Positions 5,606 to 26,314 of a DNA stretch of 64,000 nucleotides are shown in pieces (within the stretch, counting starts at the first letter, position 1; each line of letters starts with the position of its first letter). Origin of the DNA: Owenia fusiformis (taxonomy: Eukaryota > Annelida > Polychaeta > Sabellida > Oweniidae); assembly GCA_903813345.2 (NCBI GenBank), contig CAIIXF020000003.1, forward strand, positions 20,786,931-20,850,930, in the 5' to 3' direction. The notes beneath the pieces are model-generated. The model saw nothing but the letters and a program-made list of their open reading frames with translations. It searched no databases and was not told the origin of the DNA. The position numbers and the translations under genes are program-made.

Positions 5606-8009
5606 ATGAGACGCTTGTTCTCCAGTCGTTCAAGAACCAATGGTGGATTAATGATACTTCTATTTCTGGCCTGCCTTTATATGACGATTTATCTTAGTAA
5701 GTTACTTTTTATATTGACCTGTTGACCTCACAAGTGAGTTTTTATTTTATACGTCGTATGAGATTCTATCAAGTTTAAATTTACCGAAAACAAAGTGCTT
5801 TATGATAATGAATATTAAGATGTTTAGATTATGAACTTATATTTAAATCGTGTAAATTATTATAATTTCTTAGTGTTAGTCTTGTTTGTTCTTGATTAGT
5901 TTCACATATAATCAAGATCACTGAATGATAAAATACATTTTAATGAGATTGTTTTGCCTTAGTGTTAGTCTTGTTTGTTCTTGATTTCAGGTAGAACTAG
6001 CTCCACCCAGCAACAAAACATTAACATCAATTTGTTCCATGATCGTGATTCCGTCCGTACACCAGCACCATTAAACCAAAACGACTTGTCACTAAACGAG
6101 GACGACATATCACATTTTCCTATACAGCTTCCCACCATTGATGACTGTTCTCCTCCAAAGTTTGACGGAAACTGTAGACCTCTAGGGTTCAACTCGGGTC
6201 CTATCCCACTGACTGCCTTGGCAAGCTACCCAGGGTCTGGCAATACATGGATGAGGCATATCATAGAACAGATAACAGGTCAGATCTTTATCCGGATCAC
6301 TATATGAAGTTGCTAGTGTTGTATGGCGCAAACATAATTCCCATGAATTCTCACATTACATTTAGCTCCTACACAAATCCCACAACTTATGTCACGTTCA
6401 ATTGATCGAGATAAAGGAGGTTGGGGTTTGTTTTCACTGTTGCTATGATTATTGACCCATCTTCTTCAACATTTGCTGATTTCTTGACATGTCTACATGA
6501 GTGAATATTTTTTGCTCATATTTTATTGCTAAAAAGTGAAAATGTTGCAATATACCATAGAGTCATACTAGGGTTTCATCTTGGAACTAATGAAGAACTA
6601 ATGAAGAACTGATGTAGCTCCATCAGCCATGATTAGTTTTATAACTGAAATGTAGAACTTTATTTTAGGAATCTATACAGGGTCCATATACAACGACAAG
6701 AGTTTACAAACTTTCAAAGGGGAAGGGATAACAAACAGTTCTGTAGTGGTCGTGAAAACACATCGAAGCCCTCGCAACAGCCTGGATGATTTCACCGTTT
6801 CGTTTGATAAAGCTATTGTGATCCTGAGGGATTTGGCCAACGCAATGGTCTCAGAGTTTGTTCGACATTTTTCCAAAAGCCACAATAAAGAAATAAAAGA
6901 TTTGGATGGCTTTTTCAATGAGCATGAAAGAGGTGGGTGCATACTTTTTTTGTCCATGTTAGTTCAACAACATCATTGCTAAATACCATTCACTTTTCCT
7001 TTGACAGGGTAATATATTTTCTCATCCTTGGCAATGGGTTATTTAATGGAATATGTGAAAAGTAAAGAATGTAAAATCAGGGTTAAAAGAAATTTGATTT
7101 CATACACATGAATTTTTTTCTAATTATCTCTTTATCATGTCTTTTTCATGTATTGTATGTAACATTGTATGATTGATTTTTAATTTAATAAATTGAATTG
7201 AATTATATCAAGCCCTTCCAATTTCAAATTTTACTTCCTAGAAGATAACTTAATTTAATTTAAAGTACTCTGACATTCAGAGTACTTTACATCAGAATAA
7301 TGAAAAGTGACCTCATGGAAGATCTTATGACAATGGAGAACATTATCAATTTACGTATATGTTGCCAATAAATGTTCGGCTTGAATGTCTCACGTGATCG
7401 TTTATAAAAAACACATCACAGCATACATATCACTTGTATCGAGACTCAGGGTCACTAAGTGAAACTAGAAGGCTGTTAAAGTTGGCCGAATGATGGTTGC
7501 AACACAATCAACTTTATTATCATCTCACTTTAGGTCACTGAAATAAGCAATAGTTCAAGATGCCAATTTGCTCAAACAGGAAAGGACACAAATGCTTACA
7601 TATCGTAGTAGTTCATACTTTTATACTTTCAGATCTCTGGACTTTTACTATTCTTCAACCAGATAGATGGCAGAAGTTGTATAAGTTGTGGCTACATGAC
7701 TTTAAAGGTGATGTTCTCCTTGTTAAGTATGAGGATCTAGTGGAGGATTTGAGGCCACAACTTTTAAGGATTGTAAAGTTTCTGGACATTGATGTAACTG
7801 ATGACGTCATCGATTGTGTTGTATGCAATTCAGACGGACGCTTTCGAAGGAAACATTCAAACAAAACGTTTACTCCTTTTTCTATAGGACGGAGAAAAAA
7901 CTTGAATTTTTTCATAACTCATATTAACAAAAAATTGCCAGAATATTGTAACAAATCAAACGTCCAGTGTTCTGGGTCCTTGCACTATCCTCACTATAGT
8001 ATAACTTAA
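5606..8009 (+). CDS. WSCD-like Golgi sulfotransferase, 4 exons, 339 aa
   Basis: Predicted type II membrane sulfotransferase that uses PAPS as sulfate donor. Exons: 5606-5696, 5991-6278, 6669-6932, 7633-8009. All three introns are phase 1 and the joined frame is 1020 nt, ending in TAA. Residues about 1-11 are basic and cytosolic. About 12-30 (GLMILLFLACLYMTIYL) form a signal anchor, followed by an acidic stem rich in N and Q. The PAPS 5'-phosphosulfate loop is SYPGSGNTW (about 109-117). The 3'-phosphate loop lies around AIVILRDLANAMVSEFVRH (about 175-193). The C-terminal part has the KYEDL motif followed by a leucine-rich helix, as in WSCD1/2-type proteins. The WSC domains of the vertebrate WSCD proteins are absent, so it is a shorter relative. 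The substrate (glycan or protein) cannot be told. The ATG is the first in frame before the anchor. Confidence 0.85.
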
Positions 8010-8126
8010 AAGGCGTACGCCATTATGAATAGCGAGCGTAAATATGTCAACGGGTCAATTTTTTATGAGAGGACCATATGTATTGTGAAGAATGAATATT
8101 ACAAATAGTTTCATGGAAGTTTCGAA

Positions 8127-8789: not shown

Positions 8790-11700
8790 ATGAAAGCACT
8801 AGTCATCCTCGTAAGCTGCCTGTGTTTGTGTCTAGCAGAGAAAGTCCGATATGATGGGTACGTGTTTTCGCTTTGGTTGATAAGTATGCTTGTATTGATG
8901 GTACCTAATGCAGGACCATTCCAATTTATTTCTTAAATCGGTCTAAAGACCATGCATGAATATACCAACCCAACACATCCTATTCATGGTCCGTTCATCA
9001 TTGGCTTATTTAAGAGTTGTGGAAGTAGTAACTAAATTATGCAATTTTAGGACTGTTGGGTCCTAGACTTTTTGGGTACAGTAAGATTGCCTTTGCTTGT
9101 ATAATCCGTTTGTTTGTGGTGCACGCACACGGACATGACATACTAAATAGCATCTGGTTAGACCCCAGTCGTATGGGTTTTCTGGACGAATGAGAGCATT
9201 TGCTTTATTTTACTTTTACCATTCATCCAATCGAGATGGCGGATATGGATATGGAAATTTCAGGGGGGGGGGCTCCAATATTTTGCCTGTTAATGCCGTG
9301 GTCACATTTGCTCCGATTGCCCCGATTTCCATTACTGGCGCTCGACCGTCCGATAAGTATTTTGTTCAAAATTGCATTCAGTTTCGAACAAAATACTCAT
9401 TGGCCGAGCGTCGGAGTTGAAGATGTGACCATACCTTAAACAAATCTGGAAAATACTGACTGGAAACGCGTCCATATCCCAAGAATGCACCGCGATATTG
9501 ACGAGATGAAAGCTAAAATTCCAGAACAAAAAAGATTGGGAATTTAGTGAGGTATGTTCCCCTTGTCTGTGTTATAGATAATAGTAATGTCAAGTGTAAT
9601 ACTATTACATGAGATTTTCGTAACACTCCCTCCATAAGTCTAGCAGCCGGAGATTTTCATTTACCTGTTAACGTTTGAATCCTCATTTTCTTTCCCAATT
9701 ATATTCATACTAGATATTACAACAATCGACAGATGTAATCAAGCAAAGACATTTTTGAAATGACCTTATATGGAAGCCGTTTAGTTTATTACCGATGGGC
9801 TTTCATTATCTATTGAATGCCCATGGTTTACCACATATTAACTTTACATCAACTATTGGAAATGAAAGACAACTGGCTACACCGGGTGAGCGGAAAATGT
9901 AACCTAAACAAATGTATGTAAATAACTCACAGTCATTCATTTGGCACAATTAAACCATGTTCAATGTTCTTATTTTCTACTAAGTTTCATTGGTCTCCAT
10001 GATCACGATTTTTGGACATAAATCCCACCAGCTTTTATCGATCTACACTTAGCATTGAAACATTGAAACAAAAAAGAAAAGAAGAAAGATTTGAGGATTT
10101 CATCTATCTGTGGTCATGTAGTGAACAACTACATGTATATACACCGGGTACGTTCAAGTTATCCAATCCAAGATATACAAATGTCATTCATGTACATTAT
10201 GAATAAACTTTTCCATATATTATTGCACAATGGTCTCCCAATTTCTTATTTTTGCCGTTCTACTGACGAAATGAAGCAGTGAAATGGACTCTAACTTTAT
10301 TTAGGTTACCTTTTTAGCTCACCCTGTATAAGGAAGGCAGAGAATGGTGGTCTAAGATGTGATAAAGGTGTAAGTACAACTTGACCTGAAATTCGATCGC
10401 CTCACTAATAAACACAAAGAGTCGTGAGATATCTTATACAAGAGACATATAACTTGATATAAGTCTCTGTTTATACACATCGCACAATTGTAAACAGACA
10501 AATGTCATAATTCTCCTGGGCCTCATATTGTGGATGAATTCGCAGTGAAACATGGATCGAGCACAACTGAAGCATTTCAACGAGAACGGCTATGTTGTAA
10601 TGAAAGGGCTACTGGACAGCGAGACTCTTGATTCAGTACGAGAGGGTTGTGATCAACTCACAAATGAATTGGTTCAAAAACTAATAAGCAAAGGAAAAAG
10701 ATCGGAAGAATTCAAGGATGAGCCATTTGAGACTCGCTTGTTGAAGGTCGTTGGGGATAACATTGAATATGCACCGTTGATTTACCGATATGAACTTCAC
10801 AAAGGACAGTTCTTTAAACTATTCGGTAACGTTCGTGTCCTCGAAGTTGTACGTCAGATTTTGTCCTCCGCTGAGGACATACGTATATTCCCAAATTACA
10901 GCATCAGACCTAAATTCCCCAATTATGAACCGCATGACGTTGTATGGCACCAAGATGCGGGATTGAGCCCCGATGGGAAGCCGAATACGGCACCCGTTTC
11001 TGAGCGTATGGATGCATTCGGTCGTGACGCGACAGTTAATTGCTGGGCTCCCTTGGTACCTGCAACAGTTGAGACTGGATGTATGAAATTCATTCCAGGC
11101 AGTCAGAAGCTCGGACTTCTGGAGCACAAGCTATTAGGTCGGTATCGAGAAACTGCAAACTATGGAACCGAGTCAAAATATTCAACTTACGCCGCCCAGG
11201 TGCCTATCGAGGTCATAAAAGAGCACGAACCTGAGATCATCGATGTTGAATGTGACCCGGGAGATGTTGTTTTCTTCTCCAACATCTTAATCCACCGTGG
11301 TGGCTTTAATCATTCCAAAATCGTGCGTTGGTCAGTTGACTGGAGATACCAGGATGCGGATAAAGAGACACATCGCGAACAAAAGGGTCACGTCATGTGG
11401 TCCACGGACCCAACGCAGGCTGTAGCTAATGCAGAACAATGGGAACAATTGAGCCTTGTGTAAAATATTTCTACAAGCTTTTGCAGGGACATATTCGCGT
11501 AGATTATATTCTTTATCTCCAAGGAGATGCATAATACATAATACCTTCGTATCATATTTACTTAATTATAGTGTTAAAAATCTTGAAATCATAGCAAATC
11601 TCAGCTGCAGGACGACATCATGTCGAGGAGAAATTACCTTCCTTCGCATTGTCCATTGTTATAGTCATCATTTCTTGTGAGCGGCATTTGGCGTATGTTA

Positions 11701-14700
11701 CAAAAAAATGTTACACTTATACTCTAGTATACATGTACCTTGCATTTGATGTCCATGAGCAACCCATTTGGCCTATTAGTAAGAATTATGTTATTTGTTT
11801 TTATTTGTCTGTTCCTTATTAATTGTTAGTCGGATGACTGTTAGATTTTATGCATTTCTAGGGGCTAGGTATAGTAGAGTATGCATTGTACTTGTACAAT
11901 CTTGTACTTGTACAATTTTGTAAAAGTATGATTTAGAATTGATGATTATCGTACATTTAAAACCCTGAAAGTCAATGGGAACATTAAAACAATAAAATCA
12001 CCTACTTGATATTCAATACTGAACAACCGTCTTTATCAATTGATATGATACATATAGGCATGTATTTGTAAGCAATCAAGGTTAATCAAAGTATGTCGCC
12101 TGCTCCAATATTATCACGTATATGTTTGACGTGGTTAAACTCATGTAATCATGCAGGCCTTGAGTAACATACACTCCCCTCCATAAGTTTGGCAACCTTT
12201 GCTCCTCCATTGAACTACGTGTTAAAGCCTCTTTATCTTTGAATTTTTTATTTACTTAACCTGCAATGTAACCTGCAAACTTATGGAGGGGAGTGTACAT
12301 GCCATTTCCAAGGCGTCTCTATACATTGGCAAAATATGTCTTCTTTTTATAGTGAAGGAGCAATAATTTAACATTAGTCATTAGTATTATGAATGTTTTT
12401 AGTTCATAAAATACATAACTTTGATTGATACAATCAATGAATTTACGAAATTTGATATAATTCGTAGAAAAAGAAAAAAATGAATTGAAAAGCAATCTAT
12501 TTTCCTTTTTATGACCGCCATTTTTGTTTCAGACAATATTTTAAAATTTCAATGATTGTATCATTAAGAACAATATAATATTGGACAACTTTTTCCGAAA
12601 AATCCAAAATTTCAGTGACCTTTCCAAAGCTCCTACTTTTAGCTATTTTAGTCACATTTTCAGAGGGCTGAAACAGTTATTTCATCATGTTTAGTGTCAT
12701 TCTGACCTTGTACATTGTGATCCTGCTCATGTAAATGGTATGTGGAACTAATTAAACTGACTGGATGTCAAAACAGAACTAGTTTTTTCCAGCATGGTTT
12801 TGTCACTTCCTGTTTTGTCATTTCCTGTTAAGTATCCGCAATGATCCATAGTTTTATTATTCGACAAGTTTTATCATAGCTAGAATAATGTTAACATGTA
12901 CGAGGGGTGATTCAAAAGTAATGGACAAAATTTAATAGGCATACTAAATTTCACCCAATCAGTCTAATCTTTTCACAGTGAATAGATCAATTAATTCTCT
13001 ACTTTGTGTCGAATTCTCATTTAAATGCATTTGAAATTGTTTCAGCTATGCGTAACCATGGTAACAAGGGTAAGCATGGGTGGAATTGGTTTTTTAATAA
13101 TAATTGAATGTTTTTGTCATTTTTGCTTGATTTCGTTTTAATGACTCAATTACCAAACATGATATGTCTAACAAGCATGGTAATGCAATTGTCAAGCAAG
13201 ACTCACATGCCCATGTGTTTGCTGTTGAGTTCTAAATTCAGCAACCAATTGTGCTATGACATCACAATGATATTTCTAAGAATAATGAGTCACAGTGAGT
13301 CAGAAAGTAGATCAGACTCTTAGACTCACACACATCCAAGAAATGTCTACTTTACAACAAATCAAAGTTAAGCAAAGGATTGTTATTGAATATTTGGTAG
13401 CTACTGGAGAGACAAGGCAGGCAGTTGTCAAGAAAATAAAAGAGACACATGGAGACAAGGCCTTGTCAAGGCAAGCCATTGAGCGATGGTACAAACACTT
13501 TAGTGAAGGGGATACGAGAGTCTTAGATCTAAAGCGATCTGGAAGGCCCAAGACTGGCCGCACTGATAACACTATTCACCATGTAGAGTCCATCCTAAAT
13601 GCAGACAGGAGATTGACGCTGAGAGAAATAAGTTCCATTACAGATGTGTCCTACTCTACAGTACAAAGGATTGTAAAATGCGACCTAAATATGAAAAGGG
13701 TGTGTGCCAAGTGGATTCCTAAGCTTCTTACCGAAGAACAAAAGCAACAACGTGTCGAAGTTGCGCAGGATTTTCTGAAGCAATACAACATTGAAGGAGA
13801 AGGATTCCTAAAGCGTATAATCACTACTGACGAATCATGGCTATACTTTAGAGATCCAGAAACTAAACTACAATCTACACAGTATATCAAAAAGGGTGAG
13901 CGGCGCCCAAAAAAGGCTAAAATATTTTTCACATGCTGTCCGACAGTCAAAAAATCAATTTTTAGAAAAAGTTCAAATCTCTCAATAAAATCATTTGGTC
14001 TACTTACTCATATTTACATGACTTATTTTTTGAAGTCAAATGTGTCCATATTCGCCTAGTAAGTAGGCAGATTCTTGAAATTGGATCCAAATACAGTAGG
14101 AAACTCGGCCATTTTCTTGAGAAGAGTTTCTTCTCACCCTCTGTTCAAGTGACGTCAGAGTTCCAAGAATCTTCCGGAATTCCATGAATTCCATGAATGA
14201 ACTATAGTTTAATTTTTGAAGGGGTGATAAATATCCCAAAATTATAAATAAACAGATTCAAATGTGATAATCCAGTTTACAAACTAATCTAAACATATGT
14301 TATTTCACATAATGTAATAAATGTAATTGACAATCTCAAGTATGATGGTCAAGTTTACGAAATATAATGACTTGTCATGTCATGAGATTTTTTCAAATCA
14401 TCCACCATTTTGAAATTTAGAGGATTAATCAGAAGAAAATGTAATTGGACACGATTCTGCTCAGCTCTCTGACGAAAGGACGGAGGTGTAGATAAGTCAT
14501 AGACCAAATTTATCATAAATGGGTGAAAAACTCAGGAATACGGCCAAATGAGAAAATAAATGGATTTTTCGACCGTCGGACAGCATGTGAAAAATATTAT
14601 AGGCAAAGCAGATCCTCTGACAAAGTGATGATTGTTCCCTTCTTCGATGATGGCGTGATCCTGACCCACTATGTTCCTCCTCATCAGACTATCACAGGGA

Positions 14701-17700
14701 AATACTTCACCAAGGTAAACATGATATTTTCATCCGTTTTAATCATTGTCAATTTAAAAGGAGAGAATGAAGTCATAATAGCTTTAAGCAAGATTAATAA
14801 TTTGAAAATAGATAAATAAATAAATAAATAAATAAATGAATGAATAAATAAATAATGATATTTCACTTTCAGGTTCTAAAATGCAATCTTGGACAGGCAC
14901 TTCAAAAGAAAAGGAAAGACACAAGAGACAATCGTTTGTTACACATGGACAATGCCCCAGACACAGGTCCAAGCTAGTTCAGGATACTCTTGCAGCATTC
15001 ATGGACATGCCTCAACTTCCACATGCTCCATATAGCCCTGATACTGCTCCTTGTGATTTATCTTTTTCCCACCCTTAAGATGGCATTAAAGGGACAATCC
15101 TTTCAGACATTAGCTGAGCTGCAAATGGCTGTACAAAAGCAGCTGAACACCATGGCTGATGATGGATTTGGGCATGTGTTCTCTGCATGGGTGCGCCGAC
15201 AGAAGAAAGTAATTGAACTTGGAGGAGAATACATTGAGGATTGAATATAATTCAAATGGATGATCATCAGGAATAATAAGGAATGATATGGATTATTATT
15301 GAACTTACTGCGATATGCTTTTCATATACATTTTGCATTGCAAAATATATTGCACCAGCAAACTTTTCATTGAAAATCCATTTGTTATTATGATGAAAAT
15401 AGCCTTAAAAATGGATTCCGGGTGTATGCACCATGGTCCAAGAGAAGTGCTCTATCTCAAAATGTATTTGCATTTAGTTAATAAAATTTTAACATCTAAT
15501 AGATAATAAAATTAATCTTTATTTGTACAAAGTTTCATTCAAATCTGGTAAAGGTAAGCGTGCCTATAAAATTGTGTCTATTACTTTTGAATCACCCCTC
15601 GTATGCGGCATGATTTGCAAAATGAAAATTGTTGTGCTATAACAAAAATGTGATTGCATTGCTTTAGATCTATAGAACTTAGTATTTATAAAACTGGGAT
15701 AGTCAACTCATGCAAATGTCATCAAATGTTTTGTAGACACAAGGTGTTGAGGCTGGTACCAGTCACAGAGGATCAGATAGAAACTCTTCACATCTGGCAC
15801 AATGAGGCACACAAACGCGGGGTGAGAATCTATATATTTCAAACCACCATTTTTTGTGGAATGATGTACTAATTGATATTCGAACATGACTGTATTCACG
15901 CCTTCTATAAACTGTGGACAAAGTCAATGCTTCAGCTGGGTAATATTCGAGATCAATACCCCAGCTCTGTACTAGTGTTTCGTTCAATGCACTCAATGGT
16001 CAGTTCAGACTGTTCCGTTCTTTTCTTTTTTATATGGATATCCGCTGTGATTTCTTTGTTTCTGGGCAATATAGAATTAATTTCAATAATTATCAATGTA
16101 GTAGATATGCGTGAAACCAATAAAATAGGCCGAAATGTCAATAAAAAAAGTCGGGGTCAGGAGGTAAGTAAACAAATTGGAACAGCTAAACGATCAAGCG
16201 GATATAGAAATGAAAAAAGTTGAAATGAACATTGAAATTGACGATTTTGCTATATTCTGGTGAGTTTTCATGTTCGAATCGTAGTATAGACCTCAGAGCA
16301 GGGCTACTAGTTTCGAATAGGCCTACACCCCTTAGGTCTTGGCACAAAAGCTTTCGAACCTCTCACCCTTCGGTCGGTCGGGGAACAGAAAACGTTTGTG
16401 CCAAAACCTGTGGGGTGTAGGCCTATTCGGAATTAGTAGCAAAATATCACAGGCGACCTTCATTATGTATTGTATTTTCATCAAGAGGTGATTTCGACAT
16501 TTACGTGAAAATATTCATAGATCTACATATTCAGAGTTACTGAAATTCAAGCCACAAGGAACTCAAACAATAATATATGCGGCTTTTGATTGTGTATCTT
16601 TATTCCCAAATGAAAGAAAATGACAACGGGAATAAATGAGAAAAAAGCTTGTATTCGTGAATGCAAATAACATCTGTCGACAACCAGATTAACCTACTAT
16701 TTTAGGTCCATCTCATTTAAACATATATACTTCCTGCCACTATTTCATTCAAATGAGTCGGTCAAAGCATAGTAGGTTAGTCCGGTAACCGACAGCCGAA
16801 AGTTGCATTCACTAATACAAGCTTATACAGATAATACCACAATATAGATCTTAAGTTCGTATACACATGTGATTTCAGCTCATTTTCTGGGGCGAACCAG
16901 GCCTGTTGAACCAGGCTGTTGATGTGCAGTTTCCACCTGAGAAGTTCGCCGCTTACCGAACACGCCTCAATAACCTTGGTTTCCAACCCATCGTTCTCTT
17001 TGATAATGTCCAAAGGTAATTACGATTTAGATATTTTCAAAATAAAGTTTCGTGGCGACTGTATTATTGTTTAACAATGTACTTGATGCCGTGAGTGAAT
17101 ATTTATAACTGGAATTCAGAATTACGATTGTTGAAGTCCGTACCAGTCGTTCAATGAAACTAGTCTGCCATTTGTCAATATTAAGATTAAGCTACACGTT
17201 TTAACAAAACTTATACGTGAATGTTATGTTATATCATGACCTCAGAGATTCTTATCATTCCCTCAATTGTTTTTTCACTTCATACTCCCTTATACTTTTA
17301 TTCCCGTATACTCAGTTGGGCAACGGACTACTGTTTAGGGGAAGAACTTAACCTCTATTACTAGTAATAGTAATCCACAGAGGACCATAATTCAACACGT
17401 TAACTTCCCTATTAATTATTAACATCACCCCATGCAGACAGATGCAGCCTACAATTATATTCGTATGATGTGGACTCCACATTCACCGGGAAAGTAGTAT
17501 TAACATTTTGTCACCTATAATGGAAATTCATTTTTTACTGCTTAATAAATGATGAATGGCAGTCATATTAAGTTCTATAAGTATGGGAACAGCATGCCGT
17601 CTTGATATTTCAAGGTTACTCGTTGAAAAATGATGACGGTGATTGAAATGACGATGTAAAGATAAATCGCAACGAAATATTTGTAGATATCTTTGAAAAA

Positions 17701-20700
17701 CTAAGAAATATACATCTCATATTGAATTTTTCAAAACAGAAAAAACATGCATAAATAGTAAAGCATGTAGGTCCGATTCCCCCTGGTAGCATTAACATTG
17801 GTCTCGTATAAGTCATACAAGTACTATTTGAAACCCAACTATTATTCAAACTTATGATCGGACATAAGTTTGAGGAGTACTTCAATGTATGATATTGATA
17901 AAGTAACATCATACTTACGTCCGATCACAAGTTCGAATGATAGTTGCATTTCGATTATTATCGATTATTAATCGTATGACATGTATGAGACCAATGTTAA
18001 TGCTACCAGGGGGAATCTGACCTGCACGCCTTATTTTTATATAATATGTTTTTCTGTTTTGAAAAATTCGACATGTAATGTATATTTCTTGGTTACGGTT
18101 TTATCTTTACATGGTAAGTTCGATCACCGCCATCACTTTTCGAATGAGTCACCTTGAACTATCAAGACGTCATGCAATTCTCATACTAATAGAACTCAAT
18201 GTAACTGTCCTTGACCATTTATCAAGCTGTAAAAATTAATTTACTTCATGGGTGACAAAATGTTTCTTCTTTCCTGGTGAATGTCGAGTCTCGTATCATA
18301 CGAATGTAATTTTAAGCGATCTGCCTGCATGGGATGTAACATGTTGAGCATGAGATTACGCGATGTATGAGAATTTATCATATTTTATCAACGGTGACTT
18401 TTTAGTGAACTTGACAACCAGGAAGCGGCAAGGGTTACCAGGCAACAGCAAACGCCCACCTTGAATTTCTTCACCGATTACCGAACTGCAGCCGAGGTAA
18501 TATAATGTCATTGGCTTACTTCTTAGGTCTTAAATATCATTAAAGGTTTATGTTTGAACATGAAATTAATCATCATCCCTTTCCAAATATCTTTTTAACT
18601 ATTTACTTACCCTACAGATATTGTGATTGGAATATACAATTCAGAATGACGCCATGAGATGTTTTCCGATTCAATATATGATCAAATGAAAATGTACAAT
18701 TGTAAAATAAGAAAGTATCATTAACAAATATATAAAGCCAAATATAAAATGTCAGTATTATTTGCCATTCACAAATGAAAAATCTATAGTTTGGTTGCGA
18801 TTTGGAGATTATTTGGATTTGTGTTTTTGTAGATATTTCAATGGCTGGACCAAACAGCTGCAAACTGCCCCGCTGGCGCTACCTGTACAGTGACAAACAT
18901 TGGCACCTCATGGGAAGGAAGAGAACTTAAAGTTTTCAGAGTAAGCAATAATATTGTCGACAGTTTAATTTCCAAGATTTGCCAAAATGATGGTGAGCCC
19001 CTTAATATAATACACTAACGTATAGATTGAGGCCGTTGTCAGGCACGATAAAGTTTTTCAAAACAGGTAATGTTGGCATCTCTTTTCATAACACAATCTT
19101 TCTGGAGGGGGCAGGGGTGTTGATGACCCCTGCCAAATGAAAATCGCCCATTAGAAATTAGAATGCGTGTAAAAGAACGTCACACATTTTTGGCATTATA
19201 TTTGACACATGCAAAGTCGAAATGCATGTGAAACCTTTCCCGTCAGAATGATCGTTTCTTACCATTGCACGGTATCAAACATATCACTACTTTACTTTAC
19301 CAACTATGGTCTCTTGAGATATGCAATGAAGCGTCTTACTGTAACTGCATTTGGAGGAAGAAGGCGTTATGAATAATACTTAAGTTCGATATGTGATATA
19401 TTCCATCTAAAAACAAAAACAAAACAAGAAGACCATCTGATATAAAATGCGGTTAATAATAATTTCAGATATCCAACGGACCCAACAAGAGAGCCATCTG
19501 GATTGACTCCCTTATCCATGCACGAGAGTGGATATCTGGAGCAACAAACCTTTACTTCATAGATCAGGTAAACTATAAACTACATTCTAAAGTACTCATC
19601 GTTGTCAACGAAATCTAACCTTTACAGATAATTGGGAGCTTTGCTGTATATTTTCATATTTGTCATAGAATAACACTATATCAAATATGTCGGCACACTT
19701 AGTACTTAGTACTGAGAAGGCAGATGTGTAACGTAACGCCGAGTTCGCGGAGTACTGGCCGTCGGCGTACTGATATTATTTTTCTCCTGTTTTGACTTTA
19801 CAATTTTACACATTTGCTCTCCTATTGGATAATACTGACGTCACATTATTGAGTTGGATTCAATCGTGTTTCATTTACTCCAAATTGATGTTCCGTAGAA
19901 AATATGGACGTTAATTTTAATGAGCCTTACATAAGACTTTTTTAGTTGATTTTAAGACGTTTCCCGATTGCAAACTCTTCTCATGCGCTCTGTTGTTACG
20001 ATGTCCAAATTGTGTTTCAGTTAGTGAATAACTATAACAACGCTGCCAACAGAGCCATGGTTGATGCTTACGACTGGGTGTTTATGCCAATCATCAACAT
20101 TGATGGATACCAATACACATTTGATACAGTATGTACGGCTATATCTTTTCAAAAACTCTCAATTCAGATTATTATCGTTGATTGCCGCTGAACGGATGTC
20201 CAAAACCCTCTAATTTTTCCTTGAAATCCCATTATACGAGGATTTCGAACTGTGAATTCTGATGGAACGCAATAAATGGATCCGATAGTTAGCCAAATGC
20301 TCCAAAATGTGTTATATATTCATTTTATGTATAATGTCGAAATTCATACAAGATATGAATCTTTGCTTTGATCACAGGATCGTATGTGGCGTAGAACACG
20401 CTCGGACAGAGGGGACATTCTGGGATGTGTTGGTTGTGATGCCAACAGGAACTTTGATTTCCAATGGATGAGTATGTGTCCCCTGGTTTTACATTTGTAA
20501 GCGCGGTCATTAAGAGAAACCCCACTTGGTTAGGAATTCCTAGAGTACATTCTTGTTCTCATAATGGTTTTATGGTTTCAATAATTAGTTTAGGAATTCC
20601 TGTTTTTTGTTGTTTGATCGTAATTGAACCACCAAATTAAATATAATATTCCAAGATTTAAAAGTATCTGTCAGGTAGGCCAAAGTTAGATCATTTGATT

Positions 20701-23371
20701 TGTTCGTCAGTATTTAATTGCTATAGCCTATTTCACTGCTCAGTATCGAGCGAAAGTAACGACCGTCACCTTCGCATCAAAGATGGCGAAGGTTACAGGC
20801 ATTACATTCACTTGATACTAACCAATGCAGTATATTTGCGTCAATTTTTTTCAATTCCATATGACAAAGATTATATGTCGTTACTTGTTTTGCATTCTTG
20901 CGAGTAGCAATTGGAGCAAGTGACGACCCATGTTCCAACACCTACGCTGGAGTTGCACCCAACTCAGAGCCAGAAGTTGACGCCGTACGGGCGTACATCA
21001 TGCAGAACCCGTCATATTATGGCGCATTCATCACCATGCACTCCTACAGTCAGCTCTTCTTACTTCCATATGGCTACACCGTAGATTTCCCTCAGGATTA
21101 CGATGAGATGGTATGTATCAGATGATAATTGCGCGTTATTGTTATAAGCACTCATATTATCTTACTATATTCTATTTCGTTTCTATATTACACAATGCAT
21201 TCTAAATATTAATACCACCAGTCATTAGAAACACAAAAACCGTGTGTTATAAAGAGCCCCCCTTCACACTAAAAACATTTAGAAATTTAATAAATATTTA
21301 ATATACAGGAATTAATAAAAAGCTCATGCGATAACGAATACAATAACAACTATTGATACAAGTGATGATCCAAAAGTTTTGGACGCCCCGCTCTAACTTT
21401 GCTATTATAAAATATAATTACATGAAACTTTCAGATAGTAAAGATCAACATCTTAACAACCTTGTGTATCAGTTTCCCTAGAAAATAATTTATTAATATC
21501 GTATGATAGTATTGTAAGATGCATATGTTACAAGTTATTGTCGGACTATTTTCTTGGGTCATGCACAGTAATTTCAGTGTAGTATTTTTCCACAGATGAG
21601 AGTAGCTGATTTAGCCACGGAGGATCTGTTCAATGTTCACGGAACAGTGTATGAGTCCGACTCCGCATCTGTCATATTATGTAAGTCAAACTTTGACATA
21701 AATGTGATACAATACTTCTGTTACAGGGTGTTCCATATGTTTCAGGAATGATGCTGTATTTTATTGGTTTTCTTTTCAATCTAGCTGATTTTTTGACAAA
21801 ATGTGTCCAAATATGTTGTGAATAAGTTAGAAAAGTTTCATATCATGAAACGCAGTAGACTGAATAATATGGTTGCGATAGTAACCTAGGGGTAGGGTAG
21901 GTGGAGCAGGTGCAACAACGCGCAAAATATGACATTTTTGTAAAAATAGTAGTTTTTGTATAAAGTATGAATTTGTCATAGTCGCATCAAACTTGTTGGA
22001 AATTAAAAAGAATAAAGGTGGATTCCTGGAAATTAAAAATGTTATCACACCCTTTATTAGCCATCATCATTATTTCAGCATCTATTCCTTCCCCATTAGT
22101 AAGTGCTCTCACTGTTCTTGGAAATCCACATTTTGGATAATCGGTCTCAGTTTCCCTTTCAGATTTGAATCGCTTGTACCACTCATACACTCTAAAGGTT
22201 ACCATCATTGAGTCCCCATGTGCATTCGTCAGGAGTTTAATTGTGTCTGCTGCAGAAAACTGTTATTCCCACATGTCATGTCTTGTCACAGATTGTTGTG
22301 TGTTGCCTAAGTCGAAGGTTTTCCTTTGCTAATGACTTTTTCACTTTTCAAGATGGCCGCTTGTCCAAAATGACCTGTGTTTATTCTCTTTTGTGACTCA
22401 TGACATGACAGTTGTTTAAATTGTGATGTGATCAAGGGTGATGACATTTTTTTACTTTCTTGGAATCCACCTTCATTTTTGTTTAATTACTGACAAGTTT
22501 GATCCAACTCTGACAACTTAATACTTAGTCACACTTCGTACAAAAAAGACTATTTTTACAAATATTTCATATATTTTGCGCGTTGTTACACCTGCTCCAC
22601 CTACCCTACCCCTAGGTTACTATAGCAACCATATAATTAAGACTACTGAACTTCACAATATGAAACTTTGCCAACTTATTCAAAACATTACCCAGATGCG
22701 AGTTGCAAACTTGTCAACAAATGCTCTGTTTAACGTCCATGGAACTACGTATCGGTTTGATTCAGCGTCAGTCATTCTCTGTAAGTATGTGTATTCATAA
22801 TGCCCATACGATTCAATTGTCTATCGGAATATATTATAATATGTAGTAAATCAATCCAGGGTGAGGGGGGAGGGCATGGGGTCCACCCCCTTCCCCGAGC
22901 CCCAAGAAAATTCGGGCCCAAACATTTTGAAGGGCCTCAATTAGTGGGCCTTTTTGGGCATGACTTAACAACTTATTCCTGAATTGAAATTTGCCCCCCT
23001 CCTCCCTTCTTAGCTTCTGGATCCGCCAGTGATAAGTGACGTGAAATTTATTCGATATGAATATAAATTGACGTAAATTGACGTTCTGGATGTTTACATC
23101 TTATTAGAATTATTTTCAATGTCAGTACCATGCTCGTAATCACGACGTTCAAACATCACAAACATTTCATTCATTCTCATATATAGATCCATCTTCCGGT
23201 ACCTCAAGAGACTGGGCCAAGGGTGTACCGCAGATCAAGTATGTCTACACATTTGAACTGAGGGATACGGGTAACTATGGATTTATCCTCCCTCCAGAAC
23301 AGATCATACCCTCTGGGCAGGAGACCTGGGAAGCAGTCAAAAGGATTGCCCAAGAGATAACTTTTCCTTGA
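8790..23371 (+). CDS. M14A procarboxypeptidase (CPO/CPA-like), 11 exons, 420 aa
   Basis: Secreted zinc carboxypeptidase that removes C-terminal residues. Exons: 8790-8857, 15737-15821, 16879-17015, 18406-18496, 18833-18940, 19469-19567, 20021-20128, 20378-20471, 20908-21110, then either 21596-21680 (10a) or 22696-22780 (10b), then 23187-23371. The joined frame is 1263 nt with every junction in phase. Residues 1-16 are a signal peptide (MKALVILVSCLCLCLA); about 17-115 form the activation propeptide. Catalytic residues by family alignment: zinc ligands H180 and E183 (IHAREW) and H308 (MHSYSQ), R237 (MWRRTRS, CPA Arg127), N255/R256 (DANRN), Y360 (CPA Tyr248; codon split across the exon 10/11 junction) and general base E383 (YTFELRDTG). 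R367 sits at the CPA residue-255 position, which sets specificity; the Arg there suggests preference for acidic C-termini, as in carboxypeptidase O. A TATA-like AATATATAC lies near 8711. Confidence 0.92.
8858..10500. other. Carboxypeptidase intron 1, first part
   Basis: Non-coding apart from the MITE at 9291-9439. A terminal-repeat-like fragment, ACACTCCCTCCATAAGTCTA at about 9624, resembles the end of the MITE at 12171-12297. No exon could be supported. Confidence 0.4.
9291..9439. mobile_element. Palindromic MITE, family A copy 1
   Basis: Hairpin with outer ends TAATGCCGTGGTCACATTTG and GATGTGACCATACCTTAA. The inner core has TTTTGTTCAAAATTG facing GAACAAAATACTCATTGGCC. Same family as 45874-45991 and 55662-55806. 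Non-coding; it lies in carboxypeptidase intron 1. Confidence 0.75.
10552..11463 (+). CDS. Phytanoyl-CoA dioxygenase (PhyH) family protein, intronless, 303 aa
   Basis: Single-exon gene for an Fe(II)/2-oxoglutarate-dependent oxygenase of the PhyH superfamily. The double-stranded beta-helix iron site is H133-x-D135 in VWHQDAG, with distal H248 in NILIHRGGFNHS. R259 (IVRWSVDWRY) is the expected 2-oxoglutarate carboxylate ligand. The full-length domain runs from about residue 5 to 285 with no peroxisomal PTS1 (it ends LSLV), no signal peptide and no membrane segment. A CAG at about 10542 just before the ATG could be the acceptor of a 5'-UTR intron. It lies on the same strand inside carboxypeptidase intron 1. 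Lack of introns fits a retrocopy or a horizontally acquired gene, but the frame and active site are intact. The substrate is unknown. Confidence 0.88.
   Translation: MDRAQLKHFNENGYVVMKGLLDSETLDSVREGCDQLTNELVQKLISKGKRSEEFKDEPFETRLLKVVGDNIEYAPLIYRYELHKGQFFKLFGNVRVLEVVRQILSSAEDIRIFPNYSIRPKFPNYEPHDVVWHQDAGLSPDGKPNTAPVSERMDAFGRDATVNCWAPLVPATVETGCMKFIPGSQKLGLLEHKLLGRYRETANYGTESKYSTYAAQVPIEVIKEHEPEIIDVECDPGDVVFFSNILIHRGGFNHSKIVRWSVDWRYQDADKETHREQKGHVMWSTDPTQAVANAEQWEQLSLV
11991..11996 (+). promoter_or_regulatory. Candidate polyadenylation signal for the PhyH-like gene
   Basis: AATAAA about 530 bases after the PhyH stop, with no better signal between. The intervening 11464-11990 is AT-rich and non-coding, consistent with a 3' UTR. 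Confidence 0.4.
12171..12297. mobile_element. Small TA-flanked MITE
   Basis: TA-CACTCCCCTCCATAAGTTTG on the left is answered by CAAACTTATGGAGGGGAGTG-TA on the right, about 125 bp in all. Termini and TA flanks fit a Tc1/mariner-type non-autonomous element. Related ends occur near 9624, 30308 and 30606. Confidence 0.75.
13920..14599. mobile_element. Foldback element nested in the mariner transposase
   Basis: Inverted ends AATATTTTTCACATGCTGTC and GACAGCATGTGAAAAATATT, flanked by TA at 13918-13919 and 14600-14601. Dropping the element and one TA leaves the transposase frame continuous (KKA then RQSRSSD), which shows it inserted into a TA target. No coding capacity is recognised inside. Confidence 0.85.
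14715..14872 (+). other. Possible intron within the mariner transposase, with an AAAT microsatellite
   Basis: The transposase reads YFTK up to AAG|GTAAAC at 14714 and resumes as VLKCNLGQ right after TTTCACTTTCAG at 14872. The 158-base gap has consensus GT-AG ends and includes an AAAT/AATG repeat (about 14812-14855). A spliceosomal intron is the simplest reading; an unrelated insertion is the alternative. Confidence 0.55.
16303..16442. mobile_element. Palindromic MITE in carboxypeptidase intron 2
   Basis: The arms start CGAATAGGCCTACACCCC and end GGGGTGTAGGCCTATTCGG, with further pairing GGCACAAAAGCTTTCG/CGTTTGTGCC inside and outer flanks CTACTAG/TTAGTAG. About 140 bp; non-coding. Confidence 0.75.
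17449..18312. mobile_element. Large (~860 bp) imperfect palindrome in carboxypeptidase intron 3
   Basis: Two inverted arms of roughly 400 bp meet near 17885. Matching landmarks: ATTCGTATGATG/CATACGAAT at the outer ends; CATTCACC/GGTGAATG; CGTCTTGAT/ATCAAGACG; TTTTCAAAACAG/CTGTTTTGAAAA; and CCCCCTGGTAGCATTAACAT against its complement. Arm identity looks like about 80%. There is no recognisable protein. It behaves like a foldback element. Confidence 0.75.
21596..21680 (+). CDS. Carboxypeptidase alternative exon 10a
   Basis: 85 nt, between a TTTTTCCACAG acceptor and TTAT|GTAAGT. It encodes MRVADLATEDLFNVHGTVYE followed by SDSASVIL, plus the first base of the Tyr248-equivalent codon. It corresponds to the loop and strand running up to the S1' pocket (roughly CPA residues 220-247). 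It begins in phase 0 and ends in phase 1, exactly as 10b does. It differs from 10b mainly at the V-Y-E-S positions (10b: T-Y-R-F), aligned with CPA 237-240. Confidence 0.9.
21811..22692 (-). mobile_element. Deleted mariner with ~220-bp inverted ends between exons 10a and 10b
   Basis: The left arm (21811-22026) and right arm (22462-22692) are inverted copies sharing long identical stretches, for example CACCTACCCTACCCCTAGGT and ACAACGCGCAAAATAT. The loop holds a minus-strand remnant (about 22400-22040) of a mariner transposase N-terminus: an ETIKLL-type helix, then VYEWYKRFKSERE, matching the helix-turn-helix part of SETMAR-like mariners. There is no catalytic domain. The right arm ends within a few bases of the exon 10b acceptor, so the polypyrimidine/branch region of 10b is transposon sequence. 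Confidence 0.8.
22696..22780 (+). CDS. Carboxypeptidase alternative exon 10b
   Basis: 85 nt, between an AACATTACCCAG acceptor and CTCT|GTAAGT. It encodes MRVANLSTNALFNVHGTTYR followed by FDSASVIL plus one base. Length, phase and most residues equal 10a, so it arose by tandem exon duplication. The frame is intact and both splice sites are consensus, which argues for selection. Its acceptor is purine-rich compared with that of 10a. N-L-S is a potential N-glycosylation site absent from 10a. Confidence 0.88.
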
Positions 23372-24590
23372 AACTTTAATGTAACGATATTCTGATATTG
23401 TAAGAATATAATTATCAGATCTTTTTCAAACCATTTTCTGATGTTGAATGCGCCTTTGTCATACTATGGTTATATATCCTTCAATGATAAGTGAATATCT
23501 CTATATCGACTCCATATCGAATATAATTGAAGCTATATATTTTCATATGTGTAATGTTAAGTCACAGGAAATGGGTATTTTTTGTTTAAATATTTCCAAA
23601 TCAAAACGCACCTTGTAAGAGAGGACGCTCCTGAAGATTTAAACTACCCAATCACGAATTATACCGGTAATTATTATCACTAATATCGGGTAACATCTGC
23701 TAATCAAGACTTTATTATTTTTTTACGTGATTGTTGTTTTTTTACATCCCGTCGACTCGCCTTATTTTTTGTCAGCCTCACCTTTAAAGCAGAATCAGAT
23801 CCAGCAATGATCCGTCATCTGCATCATGATCTTGACGAAAATTGTTTCAATTTCAGATTATTTTGGGCCCATGTCATTCTTTGTCGTATCTATTGTAATT
23901 GTAAACTTATTTGAGAAAAACTAAAGATTTTTACAATGCAATATATTGTCTATTTCACTAATTTATAACATATCAAGGATCTTTTGGGAGATATTTGAGC
24001 TGCGCTTGCAATGGACACATCTATTAAATATCGGGTGTCCCACAAAGTGAATCGCAATCGACGACACAAAAATTTCTATAAAATTTCTATATAGTAATAC
24101 TGGGTCTGTTCCTAATTACGTATGCCAGTTAACGCGCGTAAGGTAGAACACGAGGATGATACGATTTGAGCGAACTGTTTCGAAAAGATCTGGTCTAGTT
24201 ATTTTTATATTGTGAATGTCTGTAACAACATCCTAGACAGTGAACTTGACAGTGACATTCATAATTAAACCTACACAAACTCCTAAATGTAGTATGTATA
24301 ACGCGCGGGTACATTTACCTGAGATACGGTATAACGCAAATTCAACTTCCTTGTGTTGTATCTATGGTTTGCCAACCTACCCTATGTATGCACGCGTTGC
24401 TTACGGGTGTGTAGGCGTTAATTACGCCCATGCAGACATGAAATTACGCCCGTGTAGGCGTTATTACGCCCGTTAAGAATATTATCTTATATTCCGAAGA
24501 ATTAAAGCTACATTCATGCGATACCCTAAAAACACAAGTGCGCCAGCTTTTTGCGACGTGTCGGTAGATTTTGAAAATAATGTGGTCGTT
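23372..24590. other. 3' flank of the carboxypeptidase gene
   Basis: AT-rich and non-coding. A few GTTA(T)TTACGCCCGT-like repeats occur at about 24395-24475. No exon or clear AATAAA could be assigned; the carboxypeptidase 3' UTR must lie in the first part. Confidence 0.4.
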
Positions 24591-25050
24591 TTTGCGGTAG
24601 ATTTTTGAAAAAACTGTAGTTTTGCGGAAGATTTTGAAAAATGCGGTAGTTTTACGGTAGATTTAAAAAAGACGGTAGATTTAAAAAAATGATTTTGTGT
24701 GACTTCAAATTTTCAGAATTTCCAAATAGTAACGGTAGGTTTTACGGTAGTTTGACCAAAAATATTGTCAATTTCAGCAGAAATACGATAGATTTCTAAA
24801 TATTTACGGTGTATTTTACGGCCATTCTTATAGAAAAAATTATAATAACATATTTTAGGGTCGATTTCGGTAAAATTACGGTAGATTTTTTACGGTCGTT
24901 TTTACGGGAAAAAATGGTATTTTTTTACGGTAACCCTAGTTGGTCATTTTTTACGGAAAAACGACCGTAAAAATCTACCGTAATTTTACCGAAATCGACC
25001 TTAAAATATTTTATTATAGATTCCCGTAAAAATACGGTAGGTTGGCAGGT
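24590..25050. repeat. ACGGTAGATTT-rich degenerate satellite with a hairpin
   Basis: Many irregular copies of a (T)ACGGTAGATTTT(T) motif occupy about 24590-24930. From about 24855 the motif block is mirrored by the complementary ACCGTAA/AAATCTACCG block at 24960-25010, so the right half can fold into a stem of about 60 bp. Confidence 0.65.
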
Positions 25051-26314
25051 GTCATATGCACGTTTTTCTGAGCCACGGGGCTTCTCTAAAATTACTAATG
25101 GCAAAATGTATACGAAGTTGGAGAACGTGGTTCCTATTTTCTTCTTTTCTAAGATCTAAATAATTAATATGTGATAAATTAAACCAATGGGATTTGTTAG
25201 TGTTCTTTGTTGTGTTCTCACTGGTCTTTGAAAACGTAACTTTTTGTTTAAATTGTCAGCGTTTGAAATGTCAAATACATTATGGATTATTTTTCATCGA
25301 AGTCGCTTTCAGCCGTGGAGTCACGTTCGATATATTAATTGAATTGCATCTAAAAACGTAACTGGGAGATGAAATGACTACAAACAATGCAGATGTTGCT
25401 ATAAATACATGATAAATGTACTGTTAGCTCCCATTAGAACAATATATTATTCATTATCGGGAACTCTCAGGACTTGATCACGAATTCTCTTTTTGATACC
25501 GTATCGTACGTATGTATTGACGACCTTTTATGGATATAAAGGAGGACATATTCTTGATGGATGCATAGATGTAGCAAGTTCAAATTTGAGATCGCCAGAT
25601 GCGTTTCGCTAATGTAATGTATCTGCATTTTTGTTTTCATTTACCCCTTTTTGTTCGAGAGTGATTAATGATTACTGATTACTGAATTGTTATTTTGGTC
25701 ATTGCCATTAGATTATTATAAAAATAAAGGACAATTAATTTGATTCTATTGTACAATAATTCTAATTTCTTGCCGGTTTGTAATATTTCCAAAATAAAAC
25801 ATTTTAACATTGTATCAATTTTAATAAGCCGTTACAAAATAAACTGAAATTCGTCAAGTGCCTAATATTCTCATATGAATGAGCAACGAAAACGGGTATC
25901 TTTGACAATATCTAAAAAATACTATGTATTGCAGTCACGTGTGACGTATTTGTAGGGCTGTATATTTAAATGTAATTGTTTGTGAAGAGGTTACATTTTT
26001 CGTAACCTTAGCTCATTAAATGGTATCAAAGACAACATCAACATTTATAACTGACAAATGAAGCCATTAATAGTAATTCTCGTCTACTTTGAATTAATGA
26101 TTGTACCAGATATGTCTTTAATAGAAATACATTGTATTTCATTTTAGATCAAATATTGATGATGACTGATTCCACTTGATCAACTCGAGTATTGCAAACC
26201 GTACAAAAGCCAAGGTTATCATAATTATGACGACGTATTCATATCCATTCGTCTATCTACGTTTAATATAAAGCGAAATTATTTTATAAGAATGTATTAT
26301 TCACCTGGTAATGA
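25051..26314. other. Intergenic AT-rich DNA
   Basis: No exon, RNA gene or clear repeat could be recognised on either strand. Confidence 0.35.

Follow-up and report, generated by a model that had tools for sequence, protein, structure and literature searches.

The 64,000-nt stretch of the Owenia fusiformis genome considered here (contig CAIIXF020000003.1, positions 20,786,931–20,850,930 of the forward strand; hereafter the window, with coordinates counted from its first letter) contains on the plus strand a gene for an M14A procarboxypeptidase, exons 2–11 of which join into one open frame across introns bordered by AG and GT throughout. Between exons 9 and 11 this gene has two copies of exon 10, designated 10a (21596–21680) and 10b (22696–22780), and the 1015-nt intron separating them on the same strand (21681–22695) is almost entirely filled with an inverted-repeat DNA transposon. 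Exons 2–5 (15737–15821, 16879–17015, 18406–18496 and 18833–18940) and 6–9 (19469–19567, 20021–20128, 20378–20471 and 20908–21110), spanning 15737–21110, were delineated by splice sites, the continuous frame, matches to the Pfam domains Propep_M14 and Peptidase_M14, and alignment to CPA2, CPA4 and CPA1. They carry the activation peptide together with His69, Glu72, His196, Arg127 and Asn144-Arg145. The last exon, exon 11 (23187–23371), was placed by frame and alignment and provides the remainder of Tyr248, Arg255, Glu270 and the stop codon. The zinc ligands, Arg127, Asn144-Arg145, Tyr248 and Glu270 are all present; residues are numbered as in bovine carboxypeptidase, counting back from Tyr248 across an ungapped stretch of the alignment. 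A search for exon 1 with its signal peptide gave no confident location. Isoforms spliced with either copy of exon 10 match positions 2–286 of the 286 in the Peptidase_M14 profile (307.9 and 309.2 bits) and also Propep_M14 (47.4 bits), and isoform a aligns nearly end-to-end with the solved procarboxypeptidases A2, A4 and A1.

Both copies of exon 10 are 85 nt long, with an AG acceptor, a GTAAGT donor, phases 0 to 1 and an open frame, exactly as the sequence-only reading of this DNA had placed and described them. Its statement that they lead up to the equivalent of Tyr248 is also borne out, since each encodes residues 220–247 and the first base of this codon (MRVADLATEDLFNVHGTVYESDSASVIL in 10a and MRVANLSTNALFNVHGTTYRFDSASVIL in 10b). 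Their assignment is based on splice sites, frame, a selection test and a profile of the family, against which they scored 69.3 and 70.9, respectively, with 3.4 as the best value in 30 shuffled 6-kb sequences. This profile included 10a and 10b themselves; four paralogue exons that stayed outside it scored 12.0, 40.3, 54.5 and 68.1. No third copy of exon 10 was found in the region 15000–26000, and no second allele of the locus in the assembly, where each exon region gave one match only.

Comparison of the two exons revealed 30 nucleotide differences in the 84 nt of complete codons, distributed as 7, 4 and 19 over the first, second and third codon positions, and 21 of the 28 encoded residues are common. 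Eight of the 11 comparable fourfold sites differ, and in the NG86 estimate dN is 0.20 with dS not computable due to saturation. Since synonymous sites are saturated, the duplication is old. In neutral simulations, 20,000 from each exon, seven or fewer residue changes were never reached (the minimum was 10), and 54–57% of runs acquired a stop codon. So few replacements, never seen in the neutral runs, mean that the pair is both old and selected: it is under purifying selection as coding sequence. The idea that the duplicated unit extended into the downstream intron was rejected, the flanks being no more alike than shuffled sequences (P 0.87).

The origin of the pair was followed in 19 M14 loci cut from the same genome (plus one more, L036, considered at the end). 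Fourteen of them have one exon 10 each, another three (L002, L018, L019) cover further stretches of genes already counted among the fourteen, one gene each, and two (L016, L017) have no recognisable exon 10; the sample did not extend to the M14 matches at C1, C6, C8, C11 and C2:9.5 Mb, to those remaining on C12 or to the 5′ portion of the gene at C2:29.89 Mb. In all 14 loci the single exon 10 is 85 nt long and is bordered by AG upstream and GT downstream, so its frame-breaking length was inherited and did not evolve for exclusivity. Any of the 14 exons shares just 5–13 residues with 10a or 10b, as compared to 21 of 28 between the latter two. Being closer to each other than to all these paralogues, 10a and 10b arose by duplication in the window gene after its split from them, and judging by these comparisons the duplication is specific to this gene among the paralogues sampled. 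Even the closest of them (L015, with 68% identity in exon 11 and 53% in exon 9) has one exon 10.

Joining of both exons places a stop codon in 10b, 47 nt upstream of the last junction; if both are skipped, the frame stops in exon 11. Thus, spliced translations confirm the expected frameshift upon inclusion of both or neither. By the 50–55 nt rule of nonsense-mediated decay, the frameshifted mRNAs with double inclusion or skipping may escape degradation. If decay does not remove them, any real exclusivity has to be achieved mainly at the level of splicing. The “obligate” exclusivity originally suggested for this pair holds, therefore, as a coding argument, in the sense that only single-exon mRNAs encode the full enzyme. 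It does not hold as a splicing mechanism, because the length of 85 nt and the phases are inherited family-wide and the frameshifted mRNAs do not clearly qualify as decay targets.

The choice of exon changes seven residues (10a/10b): 224 D/N, 226 A/S, 228 E/N, 229 D/A, 237 V/T, 239 E/R and 240 S/F, the last three belonging to the stretch VYES/TYRF at 237–240. Residues 241–247 are identical. The positions known to shape the specificity pocket are 255 and also 203, 207, 243, 247, 253 and 268 (PMC9925722). The two isoforms agree at all seven (Leu203, Gly207, Ala243, Leu247, Thr253, Arg255 and Thr268), and only 243 and 247 of them fall inside exon 10. Hence exon choice leaves the S1′ pocket unaltered at these positions, and the proposal that alternative exons reshape the S1′ side of the enzyme was not supported. 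Isoform choice is expected to alter contacts at the surface, at the rim or with partners and not the primary specificity, and the replacements at 224–229 and 237, 239 and 240 might affect contacts of the rim, or those with an inhibitor, a protein substrate or the prodomain.

Arg255 lies in the sequence SRDW, aligned opposite SIDW of CPA2 and CPA4, and this basic residue likely predicts a preference of both isoforms for acidic C-terminal residues. In Xenopus Cpo.1, Arg255 accompanies cleavage of a substrate with C-terminal Glu (PMC9925722). Judged by sequence, the window gene is nonetheless not classed as carboxypeptidase O (CPO), since it has the activation peptide and CPA2 and CPA4 outscore CPO in comparison with its protein; the basic residue at 255 is a CPO-like feature. 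Activation peptides are absent from most fish and mammalian CPOs, being kept in four frog CPOs (PMC9925722). The closest paralogue also has Arg255 in its exon 11, which predicts the same CPO-like preference for acidic residues, and other paralogue exons 11 that were read have Asp or an uncharged residue there.

The transposon, which the sequence-only reading did not mention, takes about 967 of the 1015 nt (95%) of the intron between 10a and 10b. Together with its left flanking TA (21722–21723) it extends over 21722–22688, the element itself starting at 21724 and having no strand assigned, so that outside this match only 41 nt remain on the left and 7 nt on the right. It was recognised in DNA searches of the genome, where each query gave at least 40 matches, the window's own included, among the best 40 of 199 and the best 40 of 221 candidates that were scored. 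Sixteen loci were cut, and after omission of L020 and L028 (both the window itself) and of L029 and L031 (duplicates of L027 and L021) 12 other copies remained. They are 1034–1067 bp long, start with CAGGG, end with CACCCTG and are flanked by TA on both sides in 11 cases, the left flank being masked in the twelfth. Flanking TA dinucleotides and terminal inverted repeats define the mariner-like family of DNA transposons; both are present in these copies, and the window copy retains the left end only. A scan of a single minus-strand frame (91 aa) for a transposase domain gave no Pfam families.

The left end of the window copy is complete, and the last ~89 nt of its right terminal repeat are gone. 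The 12 other copies extend 76–91 nt farther on this side (89 nt in 10 of 12), and a search of the remaining window did not recover the lost segment. We have therefore withdrawn the assumption that the right end is natural and the intron before insertion was exactly 48 nt long. What remains next to 10b is the right arm (22571–22688, plus strand) of a 118-nt inverted repeat, 89% complementary to the left arm (21813–21930) and ending 7 nt before the exon. The window copy has 17 differences from the family majority over 883 positions (1.9%; sister copies have 14 to 32). With this divergence the insertion is recent relative to the exon pair, i.e. far younger.

Without the transposon the intron amounts to 41 + 7 = 48 nt, which is a lower bound, as host DNA may have disappeared together with the transposon end. 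At the right joint the remaining 7 nt, TACCCAG, start with TA (a chance of about 0.09, since TA makes 0.089 of the window dinucleotides), which is a hint that the loss stopped at the target site without removing further host DNA. In the 48 nt of flanks a simple scan registered a lone branch-like motif, TTGAC, separated by 16 nt from the 5′ splice site and by 32 nt from the exon. For the vertebrate gene OGDH a distance of ~50 nt from the 5′ splice site to the branch point is given as the limit for steric exclusion (PMC7969005). If the 48 nt represent the real former intron, this distance would have been below the limit, and direct joining of 10a to 10b would not have been easy. Apart from TACCCAG the original neighbourhood of the 10b acceptor is gone. 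With only 7 nt of original sequence left, the branch point and most of the polypyrimidine region of 10b, if this exon is spliced, must be transposon-derived, and the same simple scan found branch-like candidates in the transposon arm 18 (CTTAT) and 41 nt from 10b. The suggestion that the hairpin into which the 118-nt repeat would fold makes the 10b acceptor unusually paired was rejected: its pairing probability, 0.74, is within the range of nine other acceptors of the gene that were tested (0.50–0.76).

Based on these data we regard as reasonably probable that exons 10a and 10b are a tandem duplicate pair of selected alternatives; the acceptor neighbourhood of 10b was replaced upon a late transposon insertion. 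Exon 10 was duplicated long ago, after the gene had split from the sampled paralogues, and both copies would have been selected as alternatives, one per mRNA giving the full enzyme and two or none giving a frameshift. The two enzymes would have the same catalytic residues and checked pocket positions, differing at 224–229 and 237, 239 and 240. Much later a TA-flanked transposon inserted between the exons, and its right end was lost up to 7 nt from 10b, which would make splicing of 10b, if any, dependent on transposon-derived sequence and would lift any earlier steric bar to 10a–10b joining imposed by the short intron. As far as the coding sequence allows one to judge, 10a and 10b are probably used one at a time, and the transposon may be disturbing the choice between them. 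If this is true, one gene gives two proteases with a common pocket that differ elsewhere.

Several observations weigh against this explanation. The intron is 1015 nt long today, and the steric block is absent now. Rfam gave nothing at the gathering threshold in 20800–23500, where an RNA structure could have provided exclusivity. In the ranking of 42 family sites the acceptor of 10b is the 13th weakest and that of 10a the 23rd, although the former is weak rather than abnormal; these 42 include probable false exon-11 calls (L006, L010 and L014 gave two exons 11 each), and L012 gave none. The selection test, finally, covers the pair: for one copy alone, 15 neutral changes give a borderline rejection (P 0.05–0.06), 12 are compatible with the data (P 0.26–0.28), and 20 are improbable (P 0.001).

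These reservations leave some room for an alternative that is unlikely but deserves attention: a formerly alternative pair from which now only the 10a enzyme is made, 10b being a young, undecayed fossil after its acceptor neighbourhood was destroyed by the insertion and the loss of the transposon end. It shares its history with the explanation preferred above, and the likelihoods of the two are not exclusive. The 7 nt of original sequence before 10b fit it, as does an acceptor that has 6 uridines in 18 positions (5 to 12 in the 42 family sites) and falls into the weaker third, with that of 10a in mid-rank. Intactness of 10b is uninformative here, as with ~1.9% divergence since the insertion just one or two changes are expected in 84 nt, and in OGDH reporters elements placed downstream of the distant branch points led to repression of exon 4b, the downstream one (PMC7969005). 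However, the 10b acceptor is no worse than 12 other sites of the family, including two in exons 4 and 9 of the window gene and one in exon 11, and the transposon arm offers the branch-like CTTAT 18 nt from the exon. The suspicion of a recent dead duplicate, raised together with the original idea, is thus removed for the pair, which is old and selected, but the young transposon 7 nt from 10b leaves room for a recent silencing of this copy.

By analogy with OGDH, 10b may have been lost or weakened, or both exons may now be spliced together. In that gene, insertions upstream of branch points diminished the upstream exon, some giving both exons, and insertions downstream of branch points repressed the downstream one (PMC7969005). 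It is conceivable, though rather doubtful, that the pair is losing its rule: 10a and 10b would once have been held separate by an intron of 48 nt, too short for splicing and with its branch point 16 nt past the 5′ splice site, and the insertion, which lengthened this intron about twentyfold and replaced the acceptor neighbourhood of 10b, would now permit double inclusion, silence one enzyme form or leave the choice to a transposon-borne branch point in the 118-nt hairpin arm. The young transposon between the exons would in any of these cases be a natural, testable example of an insertion breaking or rewiring exclusive splicing. Frequent co-inclusion of 10a and 10b after the intron was lengthened, with the truncated frameshifted product reflecting unproductive splicing instead of isoform choice, seems improbable. 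The present length of 1015 nt, the GTAAGT donors on both exons and the position of the double-inclusion stop (in 10b, 47 nt upstream of the last junction) are consistent with it, and some antisense insertions in OGDH did give both exons together (PMC7969005), but coding selection on the pair is hard to square with one copy being a mere poison exon. That 10b is a stray, never-used copy, such as a fragment of a lost neighbouring paralogue, is very improbable: the genome does have M14 genes lying side by side (e.g. on C9, where the matches of two such genes are ~4–5 kb apart), but no other M14 match falls between exons 10a and 11, the substitutions follow the pattern of coding selection, and 10a and 10b are far nearer to each other than to any of the 14 paralogue exons.

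The closest parallel to the explanation that we prefer is provided by exons 4a and 4b of vertebrate OGDH, also an ancient tandem duplicate of an internal coding exon that gives two enzyme variants by mutually exclusive use (PMC7969005). There, as here, much depends on the intron between the two exons, and elements inserted into it alter branch points and exon choice in reporters. However, OGDH keeps this intron short, whereas that of the window gene is 95% transposon. Duplicated exons also give two protein isoforms in U2AF1 (exons Ab and 3; PMC5224494), a different gene and protein, and two mRNAs for the alternative oxidase of oyster, AOXA and AOXB (PMC5589949), which is likewise a marine invertebrate enzyme but a different one. 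Choice between tandem exons is known in channels (PMC9741552) and myosin heavy chain (PMC9013439). In the M14A subfamily itself, new specificities of carboxypeptidase O and its Xenopus paralogues came via gene duplication (PMC9925722), in contrast to the window gene, where variation comes via exon duplication inside one gene and the checked pocket positions are unchanged. Literature on mutually exclusive exons or splicing in conjunction with carboxypeptidase, judged mostly by titles and the beginnings of abstracts, gave no M14 case among the papers listed; in the available part of PMC12751375 the carboxypeptidase is a serine enzyme of family S28, and in that of PMC7318467 metallocarboxypeptidase appears only as an enriched GO term. 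Thus, mutually exclusive exons are a known phenomenon, and it is their M14 carboxypeptidase host and the young transposon filling the intron that appear new to us.

Exon duplication was also observed elsewhere in the family. Paralogue L008 (G000:C3:29.28 Mb) has one exon 10 (5626–5710) followed by two open last exons, 11a (6816–7048) and 11b (7819–8015), both of which have an acceptor of matching phase, Asp255 and Glu270. Each ends with a stop of its own, followed within ~55 nt by AATAAA (7102 and 8052). They are probable alternative terminal exons, which would make this the second case in the M14 family here of an exon duplicated in the C-terminal half. Where the gene of the closest paralogue lies (L036:188–630; G000:C3:8036200–8037200), part of the exon-5 equivalent is repeated in 117-nt units (3.8 copies, 94% match). 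Three units end with AAG|GTAGGT and have AG ~41 nt on, which would allow them to act as tandem exons separated by tiny introns; since 117 nt make 39 codons and one frame is open across the units read, read-through is equally possible.

Outside the exon 10 region, intron 3 together with exon 4 (17016–18496) has a predicted fold of −566 kcal/mol over 1481 nt, which suggests another large inverted repeat in the gene. An open frame matching Mos1-type HTH_48 (13289–14059) marks a second mariner-like element, located 5′ of exon 2, and farther upstream, on the strand of the procarboxypeptidase gene, there is an intronless open frame of 304 aa (10549–11463), which by eye resembles the phytanoyl-CoA dioxygenase family.

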